Source: Hesseltinella vesiculosa (taxonomy: Eukaryota; Mucoromycota; Mucoromycetes; Mucorales; Cunninghamellaceae). Taken from it: a DNA stretch of 64,000 nucleotides. Below are positions 50,420 to 64,000 of the stretch, one piece after another (positions within the stretch are counted from its first letter, which is position 1; each line of letters begins with the position of its first letter). Under the pieces are notes generated by a model. The model did not search any database. It was not told the origin of the DNA and worked only from the letters and a program-made list of their open reading frames with translations. The stretch is taken from contig MCGT01000004.1 of NCBI GenBank assembly GCA_002104935.1, forward strand, positions 1,054,001-1,118,000, given 5' to 3'. Both the position numbers and the translations under genes were made by a program.

Positions 50420-52031
50420 GTTTGTGAAATGTTTTTCTTTTTTTTAAAAAAAATATTGCAAGAGTAATAAAATAAAATGTAGAGCAACAACAACAATAAC
50501 AACAACAAAAATAAAGAATGAGTGATAAACAGATTTTAATGAAGAGAGCTAGAGAAGAAAAAGGAAGAAGCCATAAAAAAAGGAGTGGTAAAAAAAAAAA
50601 GGACCTTTAGACCCTTCTAAAAACGAATTGGACCACCCAAAAAAGGGAAAGGCCCGCTCAAGTCTTTTTTTTGCATTTTGCGTTGGGCAGTTTTGACCAA
50701 TCATTTGAACGATCTCCAGATTCGCTCCAAGGATTGTTTTGCTCATCTTTCGTTTGATTCACCCACTCTCTCTTTGCACTGCAGATTGGAATATGAAACT
50801 TTCAACCCTCCACCGCCACAGGCTGTTCCAAAATTATGCCAACAGGTTCTTTTCCATCTTTTTTGAATGGTTGAGTTTTCCTTTTTATGCTTGCTTTTCA
50901 TTGGCACATTTTTTTGGATCTTCCAAAACACAAGCGGGCTATGAAATGTGAAAAAAACATCTGCTTTTCGTGTCACTCGAGTTCCAATCCAACCTCAATA
51001 GGGACTCTGTGGTCATTTTTGAAACGATGCATTAAGAACTATCCAGGCCATGACAGCACAGCCTAAAAAGAAAAGGTTCATCATTCAACGGCAAAGGAAA
51101 AAAAATTTTGTTCATAAGCCAGCGTCACTGCACGGATGTTTATTTCTTTTATGGGAGCACATGTGTCCCGTTGGCGAATCCCTGGAACCATGCGTTTCCA
51201 AAAAAAAAACCATCCGCTCTTTTTTCAAAAAAAAACAATTGACACCCCCTGGATGTATTTGGACGCTGGGTCATCTAGGTTATGATCTTTCTCTCACTTT
51301 TTTTTTTTAGTGCTGTTTCACCCTGAGAGCTAATCCACATTTACACATTTCTAAAAAAAGTGAGCACGCACTTACCATTTTTTTTTAAAAAAAATAAATA
51401 AATAAGAGTCACTGTGCTAGCCAGCCATGCAACGGTACATGTTCAGAGGTAGTCAACAAGACCTGGCTACGCAGTATGGCTCGGTTTCAGTCCGGCCAAG
51501 AGAAGGGAGGGATTTGCGGGGGGGGGGGGTTGGTGCGGTTGCCTGGCCGGGCCAAGAAGATGGCGTTCCAGGCAGCAGCAAGCATGTTGCGGGAGGCATA
51601 TTGGTCGGGGTGTCAGTCTGTGTTGCGCGTGTTGCAGTTGCTGGACAGAGTTTGATCAGCCTCTCGACTGCTTGCAGGGACCGTCGTCGTGGTCTCAACG
51701 GGGGTATGGCGGATGTGGGAAGCCGAGGTGAGTCATGGTCCACTGAAGTGGTGCTGCTGTTAGGGGTGTAGTGGTTGTCGTTTACTTTTCCTTGGAAAGC
51801 CCGTCACGGGACACGAGGCAGGTAAATTCGACGGAGACCTCTGGGACTTGCATGATTTGAGAAGCAGTGCCTGTTGGAGGGAGCAGGACAGGCTGAAAGC
51901 ACTTGGCTGGTCATGTACTCGTCGATGTCAACCAACGAAACAAAAAAAACAAAAAAAGACCTAAAAAAAATTCCTGTTTATTTTTAAACCGATGGAAGCG
52001 GGAGAAAGGGAGAGGGGTATATGTATGGATA
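50420..52031. other. 1.6 kb gene-poor spacer
   Basis: Between the F-box gene start and the stop of the Trp-rich protein gene. The stretch 51427-51771 is GC-richer with open frames on both strands, but neither has a recognisable domain or supporting splice context. The rest is AT-rich with A/T runs. Confidence 0.45.
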
Positions 52032-53723
52032 TCATGCAGTTTTTGCTTTTTTGGCCTTGAGGCCGTCGGCCTGTTGTTGCGACCAATCGTTCAAGGTGCG
52101 GTCCAGTGACGCAAACACTAGCGCCCAATGTTCACCGAGGATGCCATGGAACTGCTCTAGGGTGTGGCGAAGACGAGACCAATCCAAATGAAGCTGGAGT
52201 TGTTGCCACGTGATCACGAGCTGCTGACACACAGCCGGCAAGTAGTGCTGAACCAGGGACTGTACATGCATGGTCGCGGCTGTAAAAAGTGCCCAGGAGT
52301 GGCGGAACCAGGATTGCATACCAGTGACCAGGAGTGGCAGCACGCGGCCGAGCTGGCTGTTGACCAAGCGGAGGGCATTTGCAAGCCAAGCGCCGAGAGG
52401 GGTCCACGGCAGATGACTCAACACGGCGCGCCAGCATCGACCAAGAAAGGGTAAAAGCGTGGAATTCTGCCAATGGTCCACTGCCCAAGCGACCACACGT
52501 TGATAAATCCGAGCGAGTTGCGGCTGCATCACCTTCCAATAGCCTTGCCACAGAGGGACGAGGACGCCATCCACAAAGCCTTGGCACACTTGCGCGGTCC
52601 AAGCAGCCACACGCCGGACATTGGCAACAAATCCATGCGCCACAGCTGCACAGCTGTGCAAAAGCCATTGGCACGGTGCTGACTGCAAGACCCACAGAAC
52701 ACCATCACCTGTCCACAAGCACACACGCGTCAGGCCAAGCAGCAAGGGCGAGCACACCACCAGCCCTGCATGGACTAGTTGAGGGACGACCACATGGCGG
52801 CACCAGCCTAGGCATTGGCCCGTCCAGGTGACAACTTGCGTGCTGGCCACCCATGCCACGGCTGCCGGCAAAGCTTCCAGGACCAACCATCGAATGTCTT
52901 GATAGGTCGCAACCAAACCAGAACGGACCCCACTGAACACCAGCTTGAGCAGGTGAGTGATCTGTACCAGCGGTTGCCAGCACAGATCATGGGCCATGGT
53001 TGCCAAGGCCATGCCCAATTGCTTCCAATCATGGCCTTGTCGGAAGGAGCGCCAGGCCTGGGCCATCACGGACACGGCTCGGGCCGCGCCTTGGTAAGCT
53101 TCATACACATTCAAAAAAAAGACGTCCAGAGCAGCGATACAGGCCGGCACTGTATGCTCCTTCCAGTGCTGCGTTTTGGCTTGGCACCAAGGTTGGCCGG
53201 TCACAGCCCACCACACTTCCAGGTCGTCCAGTCGTTTGGGAAGCCGCACCGTCACCAGATCAAAAAGCCACGCATCCAACTTTGGAGCGGCTCGTTCGGC
53301 AGCAAGGAGGCTGTAGTACAGGCCAGATCGCAACGTGTCTAGCAATAGCCGCCCAGCCAAGTAAGCAACAGCCATAGGTGCCATCAAGATATATTGCCAC
53401 AGGGACAAGCGTTGGGGGTGATCCGATGGTTGATCGCGATCGGCCGTGCCCGACTGGCCATTGTCTTTGGGCAATGATGGGGATGGCGGTGGGGACAATG
53501 GTTTGTCGTTGTCGGCCTTTGGCGGGTTGTTGCAGCGGGATCCAATGTCAGGTTGGGTGGGCGGCTGTTGCTGAGCAGATGTCATGGCAAGGTGCTTGTC
53601 CTGCGGATCGGTGTCATGGACTGTGGATGCAAGCTGCTTCTTTCGCCAGGCTGGGAAATCCTTCAAGAGATACCATACAACAAACGCCACGATGCAAACA
53701 GATAACAGAAACTGATAGGACAT
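52032..53723 (-). CDS. Unknown Trp-rich, membrane-anchored protein
   Basis: Intronless, 563 residues; I do not recognise the family. An N-terminal hydrophobic segment (LLSVCIVAFVVWYLL, residues 5-20) looks like a signal anchor. A Pro/Gln-rich linker of about 80 residues follows. From residue 105 to the end the protein is built of many amphipathic, Trp/Leu/Val/Ala-rich helical stretches, often about 30-40 residues apart, with few charges on one face. The C-terminus is basic (LKAKKAKTA). Low sequence complexity is not the explanation, since the composition is even and codon bias is strong. A lipid-droplet or membrane-surface coat role is a guess. Confidence 0.75.
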   Translation of the reverse strand: MSYQFLLSVCIVAFVVWYLLKDFPAWRKKQLASTVHDTDPQDKHLAMTSAQQQPPTQPDIGSRCNNPPKADNDKPLSPPPSPSLPKDNGQSGTADRDQPSDHPQRLSLWQYILMAPMAVAYLAGRLLLDTLRSGLYYSLLAAERAAPKLDAWLFDLVTVRLPKRLDDLEVWWAVTGQPWCQAKTQHWKEHTVPACIAALDVFFLNVYEAYQGAARAVSVMAQAWRSFRQGHDWKQLGMALATMAHDLCWQPLVQITHLLKLVFSGVRSGLVATYQDIRWLVLEALPAAVAWVASTQVVTWTGQCLGWCRHVVVPQLVHAGLVVCSPLLLGLTRVCLWTGDGVLWVLQSAPCQWLLHSCAAVAHGFVANVRRVAAWTAQVCQGFVDGVLVPLWQGYWKVMQPQLARIYQRVVAWAVDHWQNSTLLPFLGRCWRAVLSHLPWTPLGAWLANALRLVNSQLGRVLPLLVTGMQSWFRHSWALFTAATMHVQSLVQHYLPAVCQQLVITWQQLQLHLDWSRLRHTLEQFHGILGEHWALVFASLDRTLNDWSQQQADGLKAKKAKTA

Positions 53724-53941
53724 GGCTAAGGTATATCAAGTAATACGAAAATAAAAATGGAAAGAGATGCTGAAGTACAATGAAAAAAAAACGGGTGGCA
53801 AGAAAAAGACAAGAGAAGCCAAGCTTTTTTCTTCGGCATTTGAAACGCCACGGCCATTTTTAATTGTAGTTTTTTTTTTTTTGTTTTTGCATGAAAAGGT
53901 GTATGAAGTGGGTTTGTGATTGTTTATCAAGATGAGAGAGA

Positions 53942-55656
53942 CTATGAGGGGGTGCCAACATTGCTTGTTGAATGGTTTCTTGAAATAGAACCTCGTCTTT
54001 TTGACCGTTTGAATCGATTTTCTCGGCGAAGCCGTCTGATAAAAAAAAAAAAAGCGGAGTGAGTTTGGCTGTGTTCCACCCTTTGGTCCTCCCTACCTAA
54101 TGTTGCGTTCTTGGGCAATGGAGATCTTTTCCAGCTCGTCGTTGGACAACACATCCAGCTGAGGGGTCCATTCTCCGGCGGTTTCAATGGGCCGAAAGGC
54201 AGAAGGCAACGAATCTTTGACGGTTCCTTCTGACACGTACTGTGATGAGAAAAAGGTGAGGATGCTGACCAGAGGGAAACATGTCTTTTACGTACATCTT
54301 CTACCAGCTGGCGCTTATATCGGTACACTTGTTCACGGATGGCATGGGCAATCATCGGTACAAATTCACCTCCCAACCCCATTTCTGCCGCCAGCTGGCG
54401 ACTGAATTCTTCGGGCGCCTTTGTGTTGACGTTGACCAGATCCCATTCAAAATGGTCTGTAAAGTTGACTTTACCGATCTGCAAATCCAGCTAGGAAAAC
54501 AAAAGAAGGATCGCCCAGGACCGTGTCAATCGACATCCTTTTTTTTTTTTTCACGGGTTTACATTGATATCCACACGCATCTGATCTTCCATAGGCAAGT
54601 TTGTGGCATGGATGACTTCGAAATCCGTGACTTGCAGACGAATGGCATCGGCAATGCTGTTGGCGAATCGGTAAGTTTCCAACCCTACGTCTTGACACAG
54701 CGTCTCAGCAAACATGTCGGGTGTCAACCAGGGCTCTGTCATTCAAAAAATAAAAAATAAATGGTCAACACCAACGTCGAAAATGATCCTTTTTTTTTTT
54801 TTTTTGCTCTACCATTCAAGTTCCATAAAAAGGTATCTCGCAACTTGAACTCTTCCAGATCCAGATCCAAGCGAATGGGGACTAAGATTTCAGGTGCATT
54901 GGCTGCACACTCACGGTTGCTCTGGGTAGGATAGTGATGTGATTTGATATAGGGTGTCTTGAGCAGGCTGGGGTCTTGTTGGACATGGCCGACTGGTAAA
55001 GGGGTGGCAGAGGCGTCTTGTAGGTCGGTGGTTGGGGGAAGAGGTGGGAAGACCTGGGTGGTGGAGATGGCGTTGTCATCCACTTTGCTGGTCACTTCGT
55101 CAAAATCGTCTTCATCGCCAGTGTCGTCCTGGGCGCTGGTGTAGCGTGTCCGAAGGCTGCGCTTGTTGTTCACGTAACTAATGGGGACCACGAGGGCGTT
55201 ATCTTCCGAGAGGCGAAGGCGGGTGGCATAGGTCGAGTAGAATGCTTGTGGCTGATTCACTGGAAGCTCAGAGTCGACAGGATAGAGCTTTTCAGACATG
55301 GTGATGGGCTGCAGCACTTGAATGGTGGGGGGCGGCCGATGATAATAAAGAGGCATGGGCTGGTATTGATTGGAGAAGATGGAGGGCTGCTGTCCTTGAG
55401 GGGGTTGAGGATGCATAGGTGCGTTCGAAGGCATCTGGAGTGACTGTGATGGTGGTGATGTCGTGGACGGTGGATAGGAAGTTTGTTGCTGCGAGGATCC
55501 TTGCTGCTGGCGGATGGCTGTTGATCGTTGGTCGTTGGCAGGTTCTGCTTCAGTAGTCATGCCGCTCTTGTATTTTGGACCTGTTACCCAGCGGATCGTT
55601 GGATTCTGTGCTGTTGGTCCCGTGTAGGTGCGATTGTGAATCGAGTCGTTTGCCAT
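53942..55656 (-). CDS. SNF5: SNF5/SFH1 chromatin-remodelling subunit
   Basis: Core subunit of SWI/SNF- or RSC-type remodellers (SMARCB1 family). Exons 54813-55656, 54563-54735, 54296-54490, 54097-54239 and 53942-54035 join to 482 residues. The N-terminus is Gln/Pro-rich. The SNF5 domain (about 255-410) carries the two imperfect repeats typical of the family: LVPIRLDLDLEEFKLRDTF and LDLQIGKVNFTDHFEWDL, each followed by a helical part (SIADAIRLQVTDF; EEFSRQLAAEMGLGGEFVP). The C-terminus is basic, with SIAQERNIRRLRREN. Whether it is the SWI/SNF or RSC paralogue cannot be decided from this window. Confidence 0.92.
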
Positions 55657-56018
55657 GATGCTTATTTTTTTGTTTTGCTGTGAAGAAAAGAAAGAAAGAA
55701 AAAGGTTAACAATCTAGAGTATATGGAGAAAGATTATGGCCATGAAGCACCATGTTGCGCCAGATCCTACCAATAAAAACCCCCCAATGTGTCTAGTCCA
55801 AGAATGAAATCCAAAAACACGAGAAGAGGTACAAGAAACAAGAAAAGAGAGGCTCTTTTTTTTTTTTTTTTTTTTGAAAGACCGGTTTTTTTTTTTTTTT
55901 GTTCAGAGACAGTAGATTTTATTCGCTAAAGATGATAGAGGAGGGATTTTTTTGAGCTTATTACAAAACGCACCTATCAACAGGCATCTATTGCCTGGAA
56001 TATTGGTAGAGGGGAGGA
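55657..56018. other. SNF5 upstream / Fanzor downstream region
   Basis: Spacer between the SNF5 start and the Fanzor stop. Contains a 19-nt T-run then a 14-nt T-run around 55857-55900 and a perfect hairpin at 55981-55997. It is the place where a Fanzor guide RNA would be expected, but that is only positional inference. Confidence 0.45.
55981..55997. other. Hairpin downstream of Fanzor stop
   Basis: CAGGCA-tctat-TGCCTG, a perfect 6-bp stem with a 5-nt loop, ends 22 nt before the Fanzor stop codon (downstream in gene sense). It could be part of a right-end/omega-RNA structure or a terminator hairpin. Confidence 0.45.
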
Positions 56019-59011
56019 TCATAGGAGGGGATGAGATGGCTTCTGGAAAGGAGGAGGCAGTTTCCGGTCCCTAATATAATACTTGGAGAGTCGATGGATG
56101 TTGTTGGCCGAGTTCTTGTCACGACTCCAAACTGTACGACAACTTTTACATGCTTGTACACTGTGAAGCTTTGTTGACTTGACTTGGACACATTCCAATT
56201 CACCCCAGCAACGGCTGCATTTTTTAGAGGTATTGTGCTCATTGATTTCGGCCACAAACAACAAATCGTTGACGGCCGCCGCCTTGAATACTTTGTAGGC
56301 CCGCTTGGCAAGGCCAGCAGGGCAGCTTCTGAAAGCCGTTCGCCCAAAGGATCGCCAGCCATTACCAAAGACGACCAGATTCAATGGGTCGTAGTTCGGA
56401 CAGGGTCCCAGGGGTTTCCACTTGCGACTATTGTCACGCCATTCGCTACGTAGGCCATCATCTTCAGAGTCTTTCATGTCATGGCGTTTCTTCAATTCTG
56501 GCCAACCATCTGAGGATTGGTCGCCTTGCTCTGGCTGGTCCCAAGGGAGAATGGCATAGGGCCAGTCACTAAAGGAAAGCGGAAAAAAAAAAAAAGGCTG
56601 AATATGCTTGACCCCTCCTCCCCCATTTTTTTTTGTTGCTTTACCCTCGTTTGACATGGGGCATCCTTTTGGGGCGAGTTCTTGGCTCGGTACGGCGGGC
56701 TTTGCGCCTGTGTCGCTTGCGTATGGCCTTTGGGTTTTGTATTTCTTCCGGGGCGTATTTCTTGCCGCCACGGAGAAACATGTTGATGATTTCAGCATCC
56801 GCCCGCTGTCTTCCCATGTAATTGCGCATTCGGAGATCAGCCACATTGTCTTGGTAAAAATGGTCAAAGGTATCTGCATGTTGTAGTACATACTCGACAT
56901 GGGCAAAGTACGTGACAAGATGAGCCGTTTTGGTGGAGGGAATCGCAGATTCCAAGGCATGGATGTCGATGAGTGTTTGCTCCTTGTGCTTGACCTTCAT
57001 TTCCTTGAGCGTGCGGCGGGTGTTCTTGTAGCCTGCGATTGTATAGTATTCAGCAGCAGACATCGACCGATATTCATGGCTGTTCTTGTAGAGCAAGGAA
57101 TTGGCGTCGCGAGGGTTTTCGCGATGACTGGCTTCTTCGGGGTTGTCCGAGCCGTCCGACGCCACAAACACGTTCTTCATCCCAGGATCCAAGCCCCACA
57201 AACGTATGAGATGCTCATCGCCAGCTTCGAAATCCTTGAGTGACAGTTCTGGCATCTGTGGATCAGAAGGTAGACGCCTTGCCTTTACGAGATCACAACC
57301 AAAACCATCGGTCTTGATATATAATAGTGCCCTAGAGGAGAGAGGGGAGGGAAGGTCAGCCAGTTTTTTTTTTTTTTTTTTTTTCATGGAGGAACCTTAC
57401 TTTGCACGGGACACGCTTTTTAAATTGAAAACACGGTCGATCTTGACGCCACCCGGCATTGGGATTCGGGCAGAGGCAAACAAGGCGGCCAAGGTGACTT
57501 TGTTCAGGCAGATGTATTTGCGGGTCAGGGTGGACTGAGGACACAGCGAGAAGGATTTGGTATGCTTAAAGCGGGTGGAGCAAGCAGGGAAGAAGCACTG
57601 AGTCAACGGCACCGACTTGTTATCTTGTAAATAAGCATTGGTATTAGCAATTTGGGCACGGGTGTCGTGGATGAGGTGTTGAAGCTGCTCAATAGCGTCG
57701 CCAGAGAGATACGGCAGGCGACTGTGGTCAAAGGCTACGCCGGGCTGGTTGATCACGGTGCAAAGGGTGTTGGCGATGTTGTGGCGGCGGTGGCGACCAA
57801 GCTCTGACCAGCCAGGGATGTCGGCAGCGACTTGATGGGCCCAAACCATGGTGACAGACGAGGCGGGCTGATCGCTCAAACGCGCAGCAGTGTCTTGGTT
57901 GAAGGATTCAAACAAACGAAGGATGCGGAACATCAAGGTCAGCCAGAGCTCGGGGCGAATGTTGATCAGGCTCTTGTTCAGCTGAAAGTCACCATAGTCC
58001 ATGTTGCTCATCTTGATATCGGCGTCTTCCAACACGTTGTAGATCTTGTCCAAAGTGGCTTGATCCCCCATGGTGGGGCAGTTGGCAAAATACTCGCAGG
58101 CTTGCAGGACGGCTTGGCGAGTGTGGATCAGCTGTTCCTTAATGCGGCGTTTTTTGGCGCGACGGTGGGCATCATCAAAGTCGTCGCACAGGTCAGCCAC
58201 CATGTCATAGCCATCATAAATCAAGTAAACCTGCGTCAAGTCGATCTTCAGGGTGTCGATGGCCCTGATCACATGGCTATCTAGACCATCCCGGTCCAGG
58301 TGGGTAGGCCAAATGGGGGGGAATTTTTCATCAAATGCCACGCTTTCAATGACGAACGTTGCCACTTGCTGCAACTGACCAATGCTGTAGTGCTGAACCA
58401 CCGGGAAAAAAAAAATGAGAAAAAAAAAAAAAAAGATGTCTACTTACTGGGAGTTCCAGACACAAGCGATGCACAACCAAGCGATGCAAGAGAGGAATGG
58501 CATTGTCCAACACATGGGCGCGCATGGCGGTACTCCAGGCCTTGGCACTGGTCATCAGCGTGAACGGGAAGAGATGCCCGTCGCCAAAAGGTGCATGGGT
58601 CTTGAGGGGAGGGAACTTTCGGATCATTTCATGTGTGAAGGATTGCAGCTGAAGGGCCACGTCATCTACCGCCAACAGTGGGCTGGTCACCGGTCGACCC
58701 AGCAGAATCTTGTACACGGCCAAGACAAACTTGCTCGAGAAGAAGGCAGGCGGCACGCGTCTTGGCAAAGTCGTGCCAGACGACGGATCAAGCTTGGCCA
58801 ACAAGAACATGGAGATCACCTTTTCAGCATTGCGCATCAACCGACGATTGAAGTCGAGAAGGGTTGACAGCCCAGTCTGGAATTGCTGCCTTGGCGAGCG
58901 GCCATTAGAGAGCGTGCAGGTAGTTGGCAACTTCAACACACTGGCCATCGAGCGCTTCACTGTGCAAAACAGTTCTGGTTTCTCATCGTCTTCGTCATCT
59001 CCGTCCATCAT
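56019..59011 (-). CDS. Fanzor (eukaryotic TnpB-like RNA-guided nuclease)
   Basis: Exons 58448-59011, 57401-58392, 56645-57331 and 56019-56568 join in phase to 930 residues. The RuvC-like core is recognisable: RuvC-I in RLWGLDPGMKNVFVA (Asp567), a candidate Glu (855 or 858) in VAEINEHNTSKKCSRC, a Cys4 zinc finger (Cys865, 868, 888, 891), and RuvC-III in WSRDKNSANNI (Asp898). The E-x-x-T-S-K-x-C context before the zinc finger is the Fanzor-type arrangement. The large N-terminal half is helical, as expected for the guide/target-binding lobes. No internal stop, so the copy looks intact. Known Fanzors cut DNA guided by an omega RNA from the same locus. The start (ATG 59011) is 78 nt from the adjoining element's end. 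Confidence 0.88.
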
Positions 59012-59088
59012 CTTGTTACGAAAGACAAACAGACGAAAGGAGAGAGATAAACAAAAGTAAAGAGGGTGGGAAAAAAAAAACACAAGGA

Positions 59089-59101
59089 GGGCGCAAACGA
59101 A
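59089..59101 (+). repeat. Left terminal inverted repeat
   Basis: GGGCGCAAACGAA; matches the reverse complement of 61738-61750 at 11 of 13 positions. Confidence 0.5.
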
Positions 59102-59115
59102 CGGGTCATTTCCGG

Positions 59116-59284
59116 CTTAACGATTTTCACCTCCATCTTACCGATTTTCTTGTGCCACCTTACCGATTCTGACGATAGACCTTACCGATTTCTCCTCTAT
59201 CTTATTGATTTTCACGTCCATTTTACCGATTTTCTTCTTTACCTTACCGATTTTCATTGCCCACCTTATCGATTCTGATGACTG
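59116..59284 (-). repeat. Left subterminal array of 21-22 bp repeats
   Basis: Eight copies of the core CTTACCGATT (three exact CTTACCGATT, others one or two changes) at 59116, 59137, 59159, 59181, 59201, 59222, 59243 and 59264, spaced 20-22 bp. Spacer tails match the reverse complements of the right-array tails (for example TTCTTGTGCCAC and CTGACGATAGAC at 59147-59180). The array is more diverged than the right one. Confidence 0.85.
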
Positions 59285-59395
59285 AAACGGAGCCAGGTAA
59301 CCAGTTTTTTTTTTTTTCTTTAAACTCACGATTTTAAAGATTACAATCTCTTTAGCTTTTTAATTCCACCGCAACATAAACCAGGAACCGATCTC

Positions 59396-60494
59396 ATGTC
59401 AAAAACAATGCTTGAGGACACACGAGTGATGAACTTTATTTTGGAAACGGTTGTTGGTGAGCTGTTTAAGACAAGAAGTACCTAGAAGAGAATGCCCGTC
59501 ACTAATCCTCAAAAATTTATGTCTAGGAAATCATGCAAAAGATCAATACGTGCCACGCAACTGCGAATGGATTGATGGTCGTCGCTCAGATATTGTTTAT
59601 GCTCCAATTATGTCGTCGTCAGATACTCTGCCGCCCGTGATTGTAGAAATACAAAATGTTGTTGACAAATCATTCATTCACCGGCTTCAAAAGTATTGCA
59701 ACCACATTTACGATAGATTCAACAACATTGACCCAATTGCTTTAACGCTCTGCGTGAAGACGACAAGAGAAGAGCTCACAATGGATTTCAAGGCTACTGA
59801 TAAGGGTGAATTTTTGAAACAATTACCAAGTGATTATTGGGCAAAGCAGCATCTCATCATGACACCATCCACCATCGAAGACCATTTGAACGACCCTCTT
59901 CACCCCATGGTTGCGTTGGAATATGTGTTGACGAAACAGCAGTGCTCCCTCCTTGGTCTGGATCACAAAAACGATGAAACTGTCAAGATGTTGTATGCCG
60001 TTGCCAAGGAAGCTCTTGACCATGAAATCCGCACCCACGAGGGTACTGTCGATGTGTTGGTTGATGTCTGTGCGCAAACGCAAAAGCAGTTTAAACGAAT
60101 CCTGGAAGCGATGGATGAAGATGGTCCGTCGTTGAAACGGGCACGCGAATTTGCCAGTGCAGGTGTCATTTATACTGAAACATGCCTCCACAAGTACAAG
60201 CGACAAAATACCACCACCCCGTCTATGTCAACCCCACCAGACTTACCAGGAAGTGTTCATCCAACTGTTGGAAGGCAACAAGTAGAAGTATTGCCATGGA
60301 TCGAGCCCCAACCCAAGAAAAAGGACATGGATGTTACTGCAGAGTTCATAGAAGAATGGATGAAACATCATGGGCGAATGGATTGGAAGAAATGCTTTGA
60401 CCAAGGGCGCGCAAATGGCCACTATGAAAAATTCAAAAGTGCTTCAACACTGAAAGCAACTTACAATCAACTCAAATCGAAGAAGAATCATTGA
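59396..60494 (+). CDS. PD-(D/E)XK-like nuclease with C-terminal SANT/Myb-like domain
   Basis: Exons 59396-59456 and 59527-60494 (donor GTGAGC, branch-like CTAATC, acceptor CTAG) join in phase to 342 residues. The N-terminal part fits a PD-(D/E)XK fold: a helix EDTRVMNFILETVVG, then GRRSDIVYAP (Asp42) and a strand PPVIVEIQNVVDKSF with Glu61-x-Gln63. The rest of the domain is mixed alpha/beta. The C-terminal 55 residues (FIEEWMKHHGRMDWKKCFDQ...FKSASTLKATYNQLKSK) have the spaced Trp/aromatic pattern of a SANT/Myb-type DNA-binding helix bundle. AATAAA at 60539. It is the only gene inside the repeat-bounded element, so it is the candidate mobility protein. Fold assignment is by motif only. Confidence 0.65.
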
Positions 60495-60668
60495 TTTTCC
60501 ATATCCTCACAGTATATCATCTTTTTTTCAAAGTCAAAAATAAAAACTGAACATACCACATTTGACAAAATTGAGTTTGTTCTAAGCGACCAGGCAAATG
60601 TTCACAAATATCAATGAAGTGACAACGAATAAAGACCCGCCCTGCGCTTTTTTTTTTCGCTTCTTAGT

Positions 60669-60915
60669 GAAAAATAAAAAAAGAAAGAAGCTTTGCGGAA
60701 GTTGAATATGGCAATATCTTTGTTTCGTAAAAAAAAGCAAAAGTGCACAAAACAAGGAATGATGATGATCCTGAAAAAATAGCGTCGATTGTTGAAAATG
60801 GCTCAGCTAACTTTTGATTAGTTTCGTTTCGGCTCTTCCGATTCACCAGCTAAAAAATTGCCATTTTTATCAGGGAGTCCCAAAGCAATCTGAGCAAAAA
60901 CCGCTGTGCAAAAAA
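60669..60915. repeat. Dispersed repeat, copy B
   Basis: Counterpart of 9794-10105, same orientation, inside the candidate element downstream of the nuclease gene. The minus strand from about 61135 to 60790 reads as a broken open frame (DLTICGNLHGRKDRVKFLAW... and LPDKNGNFLAGESEEPKRN), interrupted by an A-run and a stop; possibly remains of a second gene. Confidence 0.7.
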
Positions 60916-61417
60916 AAAAAAAAAGCACAGTTCCATGCGGTCCAATACCTTTGAAAAGAACATCAGTGCATTGGTATTGAAGCCAGGTGTCACAGAATTG
61001 CCACAGCCAACAAACCATTTGGCAAACGTTCAAGACAGTCATCATGTCCGGCTGGCTTCTGAACATATCCCATGCCAAGAATTTGACACGGTCCTTGCGG
61101 CCATGAAGATTTCCGCAGATTGTTAAGTCACCACCACCTTTGCTTCAAGGCAAAAAAAAATGAGCAATGTTTACGCAAAGGTCGCATTTACGATGTTTAC
61201 GGTATCAAACAAAGCTCAATCGTTTGGTCAATTTGCTCTGGCCAATGGCGTCGCTTTTCTACAAGGCTAAAAATTATGGTGCAAACGTCATAAAAACGGC
61301 GATAGCACCATTCAAAATGATCATTTAGTCAACCTGGTCCGGCCTGGTCACTCTTTGTTTAAGGAAAATGGTGTAAATGATCAACTTGGTCTGGCCAGTG
61401 GAATCAGACAGACAGAA

Positions 61418-61739
61418 AATCGGTAAGATAGAGGTGCAAAATCGGTAAGGTCTATCGTCAGAATCGGTAAGGTGGCACAAGAAAATCGGTAAGATAGAGG
61501 TGCAAAATCGGTAAGGTCTATGGTGGCACAAGAAAATCGGTAAGATAGAGATGAAAAATCGGTAAGGTCTATCGTCAGAATCGGTAAGGTGGCACAAGAA
61601 AATCGGTAAGATAGAGGTGAAAAATCGGTAAGGTCTATCGTCAGAATCGGTAAGGTGGCACAAGAAAATCGGTAAGATAGAGATGAAAATCGATAAGAGA
61701 GAGGTGCAAATCGGTAAGATAGAGGAGAAAATCGGTATT
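61418..61739 (+). repeat. Right subterminal array of 21-22 bp repeats
   Basis: Fifteen copies of the core AATCGGTAAG (13 exact; the second-last-but-one is AATCGATAAG and the last runs AATCGGTATT), starting at 61418 and stepping 22 bp, with 21 bp at the outer end. The 12-nt tails come in three types: a ATAGAGGTGCAA, b GTCTATCGTCAG, c GTGGCACAAGAA, used in the order a-b-c, so the higher-order unit is 66 bp. The fifth copy (61506) is a 29-nt b/c fusion. Orientation is opposite to the left array. Confidence 0.92.
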
Positions 61740-61750
61740 TGTTTACGCCC
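61738..61750 (-). repeat. Right terminal inverted repeat
   Basis: TTTGTTTACGCCC on the plus strand; partner of 59089-59101. Confidence 0.5.
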
Positions 61751-62311
61751 TGGATGAAACACCGTGCCTCATTGGCTCGAGGAAACAGCAGCTCCAGGCT
61801 GTCTTTATTGTCCTCTGTTTGGGCGTGCCAACTAGCATGGGCATTCGTTGGGGAAGCGTAAAGACAAGCAGGATGATTTCTGAGCGATCTTCAAGCATGA
61901 CAGTAGCCTGCTTCGTGGAACTCCGAGTCAGCCAAAGTTGGCTGATTTTTTTCAAGGAGCAGCTACTCCACAGACCTTTGGATCGAACGGATGGCTAGGA
62001 CCTGTTGCATGGGAGCGAATGGTGAAGAGCAGCAATGCTGAAAAAATCAGGGCAGTCGACAAAGGCTTGTCAATTTTTCGGCCATTTTCTCCTAGGCAGC
62101 CCCAACTCGTTTCATTTCAGATGTTCGATACGGGCTCCTTTAGGAAGCAGAGTCGTTCCAAAAGCTTTCGATGCTGCCCAGAGGAGGGGCAGAGGACACT
62201 TGTTACCAGAGGGATGAAGGCCGGATGAATTTCCAGGCAGCGGAGATCACCCTCTCTTTTAAGCGTCGAGCGCAGCTGTTTTTCTTTCTCCCCTCCCACA
62301 TTGTTTAAAAA
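61751..62311. other. INTS4 upstream region
   Basis: Spacer between the element's right end and the INTS4 start codon. No gene recognised; presumably holds the INTS4 promoter. Confidence 0.4.
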
Positions 62312-64000
62312 ATGAAGCGACAGCATGATTTAGTCGAACCTAATGATCTCTCGCCAACCGTGGATGTTGATCCATCGTCAGCCTACACCAGGTAAGCTGT
62401 TGCAAAAGGGACGTTTGTGAGCTAACTTTTTTAATGGCTAGCCAATGGATCGACGTGAAGAAATCCAACTCTTTCATGACAACCATGACCTTGGAGGATA
62501 TTGCAAGGGAGAAGCTTGCCATCATGGGAATCAAGCTAATCTTGTACCTTTTTTATATTTTAGGCCAACTTTGAAGATATGAATGCTGAAGATGATTATA
62601 AGCGCACAACGGTAACGCTCTCTTATTCTGGTGCAATCCGTTATCTCACGCCTATTTTTTTTTTCTAGATCTTAACCGAAGTGGCTCGAGTCATTGTGTT
62701 TCTGGATCGCACCAGCCAAGCCATTGTACTCGACAAAATAGTAGAACGCATTGAAATTGAACCATGCTCTGATCTGACGGTAAAGCAGCATGATGATACA
62801 GCCTGAAGAGCTCTGGTACTCACTCTATTTCAATCTCTTTATTTTGACATTAGACCATGGCTCTCCATGTGCTGGGTAAATATATGGCGTTTCCTTACGT
62901 TGATGGTGTCGCCCTGTTACATCTCCTTATCGACTATATTCCCAAGACAAACTCCACACGAGTCCGAGCCAAAGTCTACGGCTTGATCGCCGCCCTCGTC
63001 TCGGTAATGATTGAAAAAAGAAGAAGAACTGCTCTGATATCGTTTCTACCGTAGTGTCGCCAAGTCATCCATGACCAGCAAAGTCAAAACAAAATGAACG
63101 ACCTACTGACCAATGCCAAACGGGACGTCTATGACTGCCACTTCTGCATCCGCTGCGAATGTTTGACCCTGCTGTCGATCTTGCCTACGGTTTTTGAGCG
63201 CCAAGCTCTCTCCAAACATTCGTCCTCGTCCGTCTGGATGCACAAGGACCACCAAAATATCATCAAGACTTTCCTGACCGATCCATGCCCACAAGTGCGT
63301 GTGGTAAGACAACTGCCGCAGCGCATCAATGTGGCACTCACCTCTCACTTTTCTTCGACAGTCTGCCCTCAAAGCCCTTGTTGCAATGCGCGCCAGGGGA
63401 TATATCCTGGAAAAAGAGTTGTACGGACTTGCTGCTGATTCATTGAAAGATGAAGACGAGCAAGTTCGACTGGTGGCCCTGGACTTGATTAGGTAAGAAC
63501 ACGCGAAAGCCGATCGCTAGGCGCTCATCATCCCCCTCTTAGATTGCTCTCCGCACTCTATTCGAAAACCATGGTTCTCGTTAGCCCCGAGAACCAAGTG
63601 GCCGCTCTACATCACAAGGAGAGGACTCAGATTCGTTTGATCGACGATGCTTTCGCTCGTGTTTGTGATCTTATCAATGATTTGTCTGTCGATGTCCGAA
63701 CAAAAGCATGTACCATGCTTCGTTCCTTCCGTGATGTAGACTCTGGAGTATTGCAACAGGCTTTTAGTAAGCAGATCATCATGCGCTCAAAAGTAAGAAA
63801 ACCCGCGCTTACTGGACCTCCTACCTACGTAAGTAAAAAAAGGCGAGAGGAGAGAAAAGTGAGATGATAGCGGAGAGAGGTGCGCTCATACTACTGACTT
63901 TGCTTCAACAGACCCACAGGAAGCCTGTCGTGGCCTCTGGGGACAGAACGCTGTCGTCTGAAGATTTCCGCATATCTGAATCTGGTGCCTGTGGTGCTTT
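62312..64000 (+). CDS. INTS4: Integrator complex subunit 4, 5' part
   Basis: HEAT-repeat scaffold of the Integrator complex (with INTS9/11 it forms the RNA-cleavage module). Exons: 62312-62391, about 62440-62540 (junction to exon 3 unresolved), 62564-62611, 62669-62779, 62854-63003, 63055-63303, 63362-63492, 63543-63792 and 63912 to beyond the window end. Exons 3-9 are in phase. Family features include TEVARVIVFLDRT, IRCECLTLLSILPTVFE, SALKALVAMRARG, ADSLKDEDEQVRLVALDLI, DDAFARVCDLINDLSVDVRT and ESGACGAF at the end, which align with HEAT repeats of animal INTS4. Between exon 2 (QWIDVKKSNSFMTTMTLED) and exon 3 I find no GT or GC donor that keeps phase. The rest lies outside the window. Confidence 0.82.

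Follow-up and report, generated by a model that had tools for sequence, protein, structure and literature searches.

What kind of gene is the apparent Fanzor nuclease on the minus strand of a 64,000-nucleotide stretch of the 27.05 Mb Hesseltinella vesiculosa genome (Mucorales, Cunninghamellaceae): part of a mobile element, a relic, or a gene kept by the host? The stretch, C34:1054001-1118000, is called the window here, and coordinates without a contig name count from its first letter. An earlier note made from the letters of the window had described an apparently intact, intron-containing Fanzor copy that may be recent or domesticated. We find that the gene is a well-supported additional member of the known Fanzor1 family; it appears solo, is intact in its core, and is short at the N-terminus.

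Gene model

The gene consists of four exons that join into 2793 nt encoding 930 residues and ending in a TGA stop codon, separated by three short introns, each GT..AG:

58448..59011, minus strand: exon 1 (residues 1-188), without the N-terminal extension of the sister families
58393..58447, minus strand: intron 1, 55 bp, phase 0, recurring in families A, B, and E
57401..58392, minus strand: exon 2 (residues 189-519), the pre-RuvC region, REC/WED by analogy
57332..57400, minus strand: intron 2, 69 bp, phase 2, recurring in families B, E, and D
56645..57331, minus strand: exon 3, with RuvC-I and the LESAIPSTKT stretch
56569..56644, minus strand: intron 3, 76 bp, phase 2, whose best candidate recurs in A, B, D, and locus L042
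56019..56568, minus strand: exon 4, with the RuvC-II glutamate, the Cys4 finger (TNB), RuvC-III, and the TGA stop

The coordinates and uninterrupted frame put forward in the earlier note are exact. Because 24 GT-AG combinations yield an open frame at this locus, openness alone is insufficient to select the exon model, and it is homology to sister loci that selects it. These loci come from the same genome and represent families A (L044), B (L035), E (L042 and L051), and D (L030). The position and phase of intron 1 are matched in all four sister loci tested, and those of intron 2 in four of five, the anchor in L044 having failed. A phase 2 intron in the same linker as intron 3 is the top-scoring candidate in four of the five loci, chosen in L035 and L042 by splice-site score out of 94 and 43 candidates, respectively; the candidates in L051 are all poor.

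A database protein from this locus, P0006 (313 aa), starts in another frame, reads through intron 3, and shares only exon 4 with our model, so that the Fanzor gene is easily overlooked in annotation.

Catalytic residues and the Fanzor fingerprint

All of the residues that the earlier note had named are present, and one pattern covers residues 567-898. GLDPG begins at residue 565 and contains Asp567, whereas EINEHNTSKKC begins at 855; the conserved glutamate in the latter is E858, as the column of E855 reads S or D in sister rows. The corresponding features are:

57187..57189, minus strand: codon of Asp567 (DPG, RuvC-I), aligned to SpuFz1 D383
56238..56240, minus strand: codon of Glu858 (alternative RuvC-II glutamate), aligned to SpuFz1 E541
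56139..56219, minus strand: Cys4 zinc finger (C865, C868, C888, C891)
56118..56120, minus strand: codon of Asp898 (RuvC-III), aligned to SpuFz1 D606

The fingerprint of Fanzors, in the passages of PMC10711439 cited here, comprises DPG at RuvC1, an alternative catalytic glutamate (Ealt) placed six residues ahead of the zinc finger, and a CxxC finger followed after 4-8 residues by the third Asp. The window protein has D567-P568-G569, E858 six residues before C865, and D898 six residues after the C865/868/888/891 finger. DPG combined with the alternative glutamate is the pattern of Fanzors, whereas TnpBs typically carry D-hydrophobic-G and the canonical glutamate (PMC10711439). Every element of the Fanzor/TnpB motif D-X(125,275)-[TS][TS]XX-C4-X(5,50)-RD (Bao and Jurka 2013, PMC3627910) can be found (T861 S862, R897 D898), but a long linker widens the spacing from D567 to T861 to 293 residues, 18 beyond the range that was published.

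In an alignment of the window protein with 25 sister loci, D567 is retained in 25 of 25, E858 in 19 of 19 (six gaps), and D898 in 22 of 22 (three gaps). At RuvC/TNB columns that are invariant in five other sequences the window copy retains 48 of 55 (0.87), and the other five range from 0.77 to 0.96. The coding capacity and the catalytic residues of the gene are in place.

Assignment to Fanzor1

The window protein matches Pfam PF07282 (Cas12f1-like TNB) with an E-value of 3.1e-7 and 30.9 bits, above the cut-off of 26.3 and thus beyond chance. PDB sequences were searched with a profile built from 26 rows, window exons 3 and 4 among them; the top three matches are SpuFz1 of Spizellomyces punctatus (PDB 8gkh; 9.1e-24), PpFz1 of Parasitella parasitica (PDB 9cf0; 2.9e-10), and GtFz1 (5.3e-9), and mimivirus L79, a Fanzor2, reaches 2e-6. 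SpuFz1 is also first (8e-10) for a profile of the window C-terminal piece and five sister sequences, in which GtFz1 scores 3.7e-4. Counted in the printed alignments and corrected by 394 for the fusion tag (1032 minus 638), the columns of D567, E858, and D898 are those of SpuFz1 D383, E541, and D606, residues that are reported to bind Mg together with N385 (PMC10432273).

SpuFz1 and the window protein share the RuvC/TNB core, the aligned triad, and an IPS-KT stretch after RuvC-I. PpFz1 is, like the window protein, a Fanzor1 from Mucorales; it carries the RuvC insertion (FRI) domain which, in the text of PMC11423790 cited here, is reported only in Parasitella and Rhizopus. The fold was compared by way of a proxy, the AlphaFold model of a metagenome relative (P0003) that has window exons 3 and 4 as alignment rows, in place of the spliced window protein. 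In Foldseek, the top-ranking rows for this model are SpuFz, GtFz, and PpFz. An AlphaFold model of the RuvC exon of family A had a mean predicted local distance difference test score (pLDDT) of 49.5 and was not used. Matches to TnpB (NF040570, 4.6e-5) and IS607 TnpB (NF038280, 0.0046) are weak and far under the curated cut-offs; the likeness lies in the zinc finger and RuvC-III region.

The earlier identification of the gene as a Fanzor is strongly supported by fingerprint and profiles and narrows to Fanzor1, to which the proxy model points too.

Fanzor families in the genome

The genome-wide copy count that had been suggested was carried out as a six-frame search. It returned 64 matches and at least 38 Fanzor loci, including the one in the window, on 29 contigs; the locus count is a lower bound, as 49 of 253 candidates were scored. 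We read 25 of the 37 other loci, 19 as 9-kb stretches and six as shorter ones. At the DNA level, ten of the 19 belong to family A and eight to family B, two of the latter forming a subfamily at about 89%. Besides the window gene, the genome holds at least four further Fanzor families, at least two of them of mobile type.

Copies of A and B start with TA-CAGT... and finish with ...ACAG-TA, and their terminal inverted repeats are imperfect; we read these termini as Tc1/mariner-like from their sequence. Fanzor1 inside mariner elements has been published (PMC3627910); mariner terminal inverted repeats and TA duplications are found in some of the Fanzor1 elements from other hosts, and families A and B apparently resemble them. 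The same source gives 3 to 10 Fanzor1 families per genome for the Mucorales Rhizopus, Phycomyces, and Mucor. In A and B, where open reading frames (ORFs) of at least 110 aa were listed for a single copy each, a transposase is possible. Downstream of the E1 Fanzor gene, L042:6094-7137 (minus strand) holds an ORF for a DDE_3 transposase (Pfam 5.6e-28). Over the exons checked, from a basic KRQR stretch onward, four of ten A copies and three of eight B copies are free of stops and frameshifts.

A probably solo locus

In the RuvC region the window protein is 33-38% identical to families A, B, E, and D. When DNA 55640-60600 was compared with the genome, no second copy of the gene was found, and only the stretch from 59116 on and a 59-bp T-rich match recur. 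The mariner-like terminus of A and B, TACWGTNTTTYC, does not occur in 52001-64000 with up to two mismatches. Between the two flanks of the gene there are no direct 9-mer seeds, and the five inverted ones (1.8 expected in shuffles) all lie in the upstream repeat array. The gene is therefore not found within a mariner-type element like those of A and B, and we consider it probably a single-copy solo gene.

This sets it apart from described Fanzor1 genes. SpuFz1 has 638 residues in a single ORF, lies between inverted repeats, and occurs in many copies (PMC10432273), whereas the window gene has 930 residues in four exons, a single copy, and no inverted repeats that we could find. The Fanzor1 genes of Rhizopus, Phycomyces, and Mucor have been reported as transposable elements (PMC3627910), whereas no ends of an element are seen around the window copy. 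That the gene is a recent insertion from among the multicopy elements of this genome, the recent copy of the earlier note, is not supported, given the absence of a DNA-level copy and of mariner-like termini and the low protein identity to the four families compared.

Upstream of the gene, and outside it, lies a repeat:

59116..61737, no strand assigned: flanking repeat segment, a 353-aa ORF enclosed by minisatellite arrays of ATCGGTAAG in inverted orientation, starting about 105 bp upstream of the ATG

The arrays of this 2.6-kb segment are inverted and built of a unit of about 22 bp; a second copy at C31:91124-93818 (L054) is 98% identical, and an array remnant is present at C12:377 kb. The 353-aa ORF (59433-60494) has no Pfam family above cut-off and no match in NCBIfam or among PDB sequences; it contains a D..E-x-Q stretch that we take to recall PD-(D/E)XK nucleases. 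It has 55 matching stretches in the genome including itself, on C40, C45, C25, and further contigs, with repeated inverted pairs on C40, and so belongs to a sizeable gene family. As to the neighbours SNF5 and INTS4, between which the gene had been placed, Pfam confirms SNF5 (2.7e-10), whereas INTS4 is unconfirmed, its putative exon at 63493-63864 having no Pfam match.

A hairpin after the stop codon

Shortly downstream of the coding region we noted a feature shared with the sister families:

55981..55997, minus strand: hairpin CAGGC-7 nt-GCCTG, 21 nt past the stop codon, in register with the sister-family hairpin; a weak omega RNA candidate

The stem has 5 bp (6 with the loop-closing pair), is in register with that of family A, and is followed by GTAA. 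In A, B, E1, and E2 (L044, L035, L042, and L051) there is a hairpin with a loop of 7-8 nt, whose start ranges from -36 to +46 relative to the stop codon, with GTAAG closely after. A descriptor of hairpin and GTAAG is found in four of the six sister rows tested and in one of 852 background 150-mers, taken from both strands of the window; B2 fails it because of a G-U pair. With GTAA in place of GTAAG the background rises to 12 of 852. In a hairpin-anchored alignment that includes the window row, both partners vary in seven of eight pairs, and pairing holds in 95% of cells; since rows were selected for holding the hairpin, positional recurrence is the stronger argument than covariation. A perfect 6-bp hairpin occurs by chance in 4-6% of 60-mers, folding of 140 nt at and beyond the stop codon shows no excess structure (z -0.45), and the window has no Rfam match at gathering thresholds. 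The shared position is suggestive of an omega RNA part that has been retained.

In families A and B (L044 and L035) an intron-like stretch, GTGAGT..CTAAC/CTGAC..TTTTYGTAG, was seen by eye about 58 nt before the right end. It is possibly an intron of the 3' untranslated region inside the presumed omega RNA, and two intron readings of the post-stop sequence are possible.

Relic, element, or host gene

Several observations weigh against the reading of a solo Fanzor1 predicted to act with an omega RNA. On its own, the window sequence finds nothing significant in the PDB (only L79, E 0.54), and whole-chain superpositions of the proxy model are poor (template modelling scores, TM, of 0.21-0.26). The window hairpin is without the exact GTAAG of the four sister rows, the criterion having been relaxed to GTAA after the window sequence was inspected; family D (D1) is without such a hairpin, and a hairpin alone is frequent (205 of 852 background stretches). 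The gene may belong to an element with ends of an unknown kind. Lastly, a pre-core region of about 90-110 residues, with the KRQR stretch and a CPTC..CP motif, is common to A, B, E1, and E2 and absent in the window. The window ATG directly precedes the Fanzor core, and the protein may be impaired by this absence. The earlier description of the gene as intact thus holds for the core and fails for the N-terminal extension.

This missing extension speaks for a 5'-truncated relic, in which the repeat at 59116 would have taken the first exon or exons and the promoter, too recently for the remaining frame to have been broken. A tblastn search of 58400-64000 with three sister N-termini gave nothing credible, and no match to the extension was seen in family D, where only short upstream DNA was covered. 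The repeat segment so close to the ATG may be the cause of the loss, and its near-identity to the copy on C31 is in line with this; however, the missing part leaves no trace beyond the repeat, and a truncation by repeat insertion is therefore inferred only. Against a relic, the part that matches the sister cores is complete with an ATG just before it, and the frame is free of stops, although a neutral nucleotide divergence of about 3.1% would be expected to bring in three (3.4% of single substitutions create a stop, with transitions weighted 2:1). This open frame bounds the period without constraint; present selection is not demonstrated by it. We regard a relic as rather unlikely. A mobile element unlike mariner, present in single copy here and with ends that escape recognition, we think improbable: apart from the T-rich match and the unrelated repeat segment, neither the gene nor its near flanks have a DNA-level copy, and the flanks share only those few inverted seeds and no direct ones.

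Domestication is possible, and it would agree with the single copy and with a GC content at third codon positions (GC3) that lies in the range of the host. Here a Fanzor would be kept under purifying selection for a cellular task, such as controlling related Fanzor transposons, with a fixed guide. Besides the single copy, the open frame, and the missing A/B-type ends, this would fit the tree, where the window copy sits on a long branch (end 1.57) without a supported partner, its top identity being 42% over 168 columns. Its GC3 is 0.617 (95% interval 0.584-0.648), above A (0.503), B (0.520), and E1 (0.543) and near the 0.619 of 13 long host ORFs pooled. However, the intervals of D (0.585) and E2 (0.558) overlap that of the window copy, 19 mechanically chosen host ORFs scatter from 0.41 to 0.70 (median 0.56), and exons 3 and 4 are not GC3-rich; composition was thus rejected as proof of domestication, being too weak. 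By exon, GC3 is higher in exons 1 and 2 (0.67, 0.68) than in 3 and 4 (0.56, 0.53). The open frame is not special either, as open copies are common in the mobile-type families, and the introns, which the earlier note had linked to a recent or domesticated copy, are uninformative, as the same ones recur in sister families including the mobile-looking A and B. Nor did we find an orthologue in which to test selection: in the protein database the full window protein has no match at E<=0.001, a 6-row profile has 20 matches and a 429-residue window piece seven, with a best non-self identity of 41% over 27% of the query, and none of the three queries found a close orthologue. Published work on Fanzor and domestication, by title and abstract opening and as far as our search reached, contains no case of a domesticated Fanzor. 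We hold such a host gene to be unlikely. More doubtful still appears the fuller proposal of an immobilised and catalytically complete RNA-guided nuclease that the fungus keeps as one gene of its own, short at the N-terminus and like the host in codon use, with its omega RNA hairpin retained and the many other Fanzors of the genome as possible targets.

Implications

By homology, the solo Fanzor1 of the window would descend from a transposon-borne Fanzor1, and its protein would fold as a RuvC/TNB nuclease, bind an omega RNA that starts near the stop codon and is made from the 3' region of the same gene, and make RNA-guided cuts in DNA. Fanzor1 with its omega RNA is reported to cut DNA beside a short target-adjacent motif (PMC10432273), and comparable activity of the window protein is predicted from its sequence. 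The guide of mobile relatives would correspond to the DNA immediately past the right end of the element. As the window locus shows no right end, the guide here, if an omega RNA is made, would be set by the DNA toward SNF5, that is, the sequence downstream of the post-stop hairpin.

The passages on Fanzors in the papers cited here describe them mainly as genes of transposons or viruses. A solo copy beside at least four Fanzor families, at least two of mobile type, in one fungus allows the retention of a Fanzor by its host to be tested directly. The hairpin with GTAAG that four divergent Fanzor1 sequences carry close to the stop codon offers a concrete and testable candidate for a portion of the Mucorales omega RNA.
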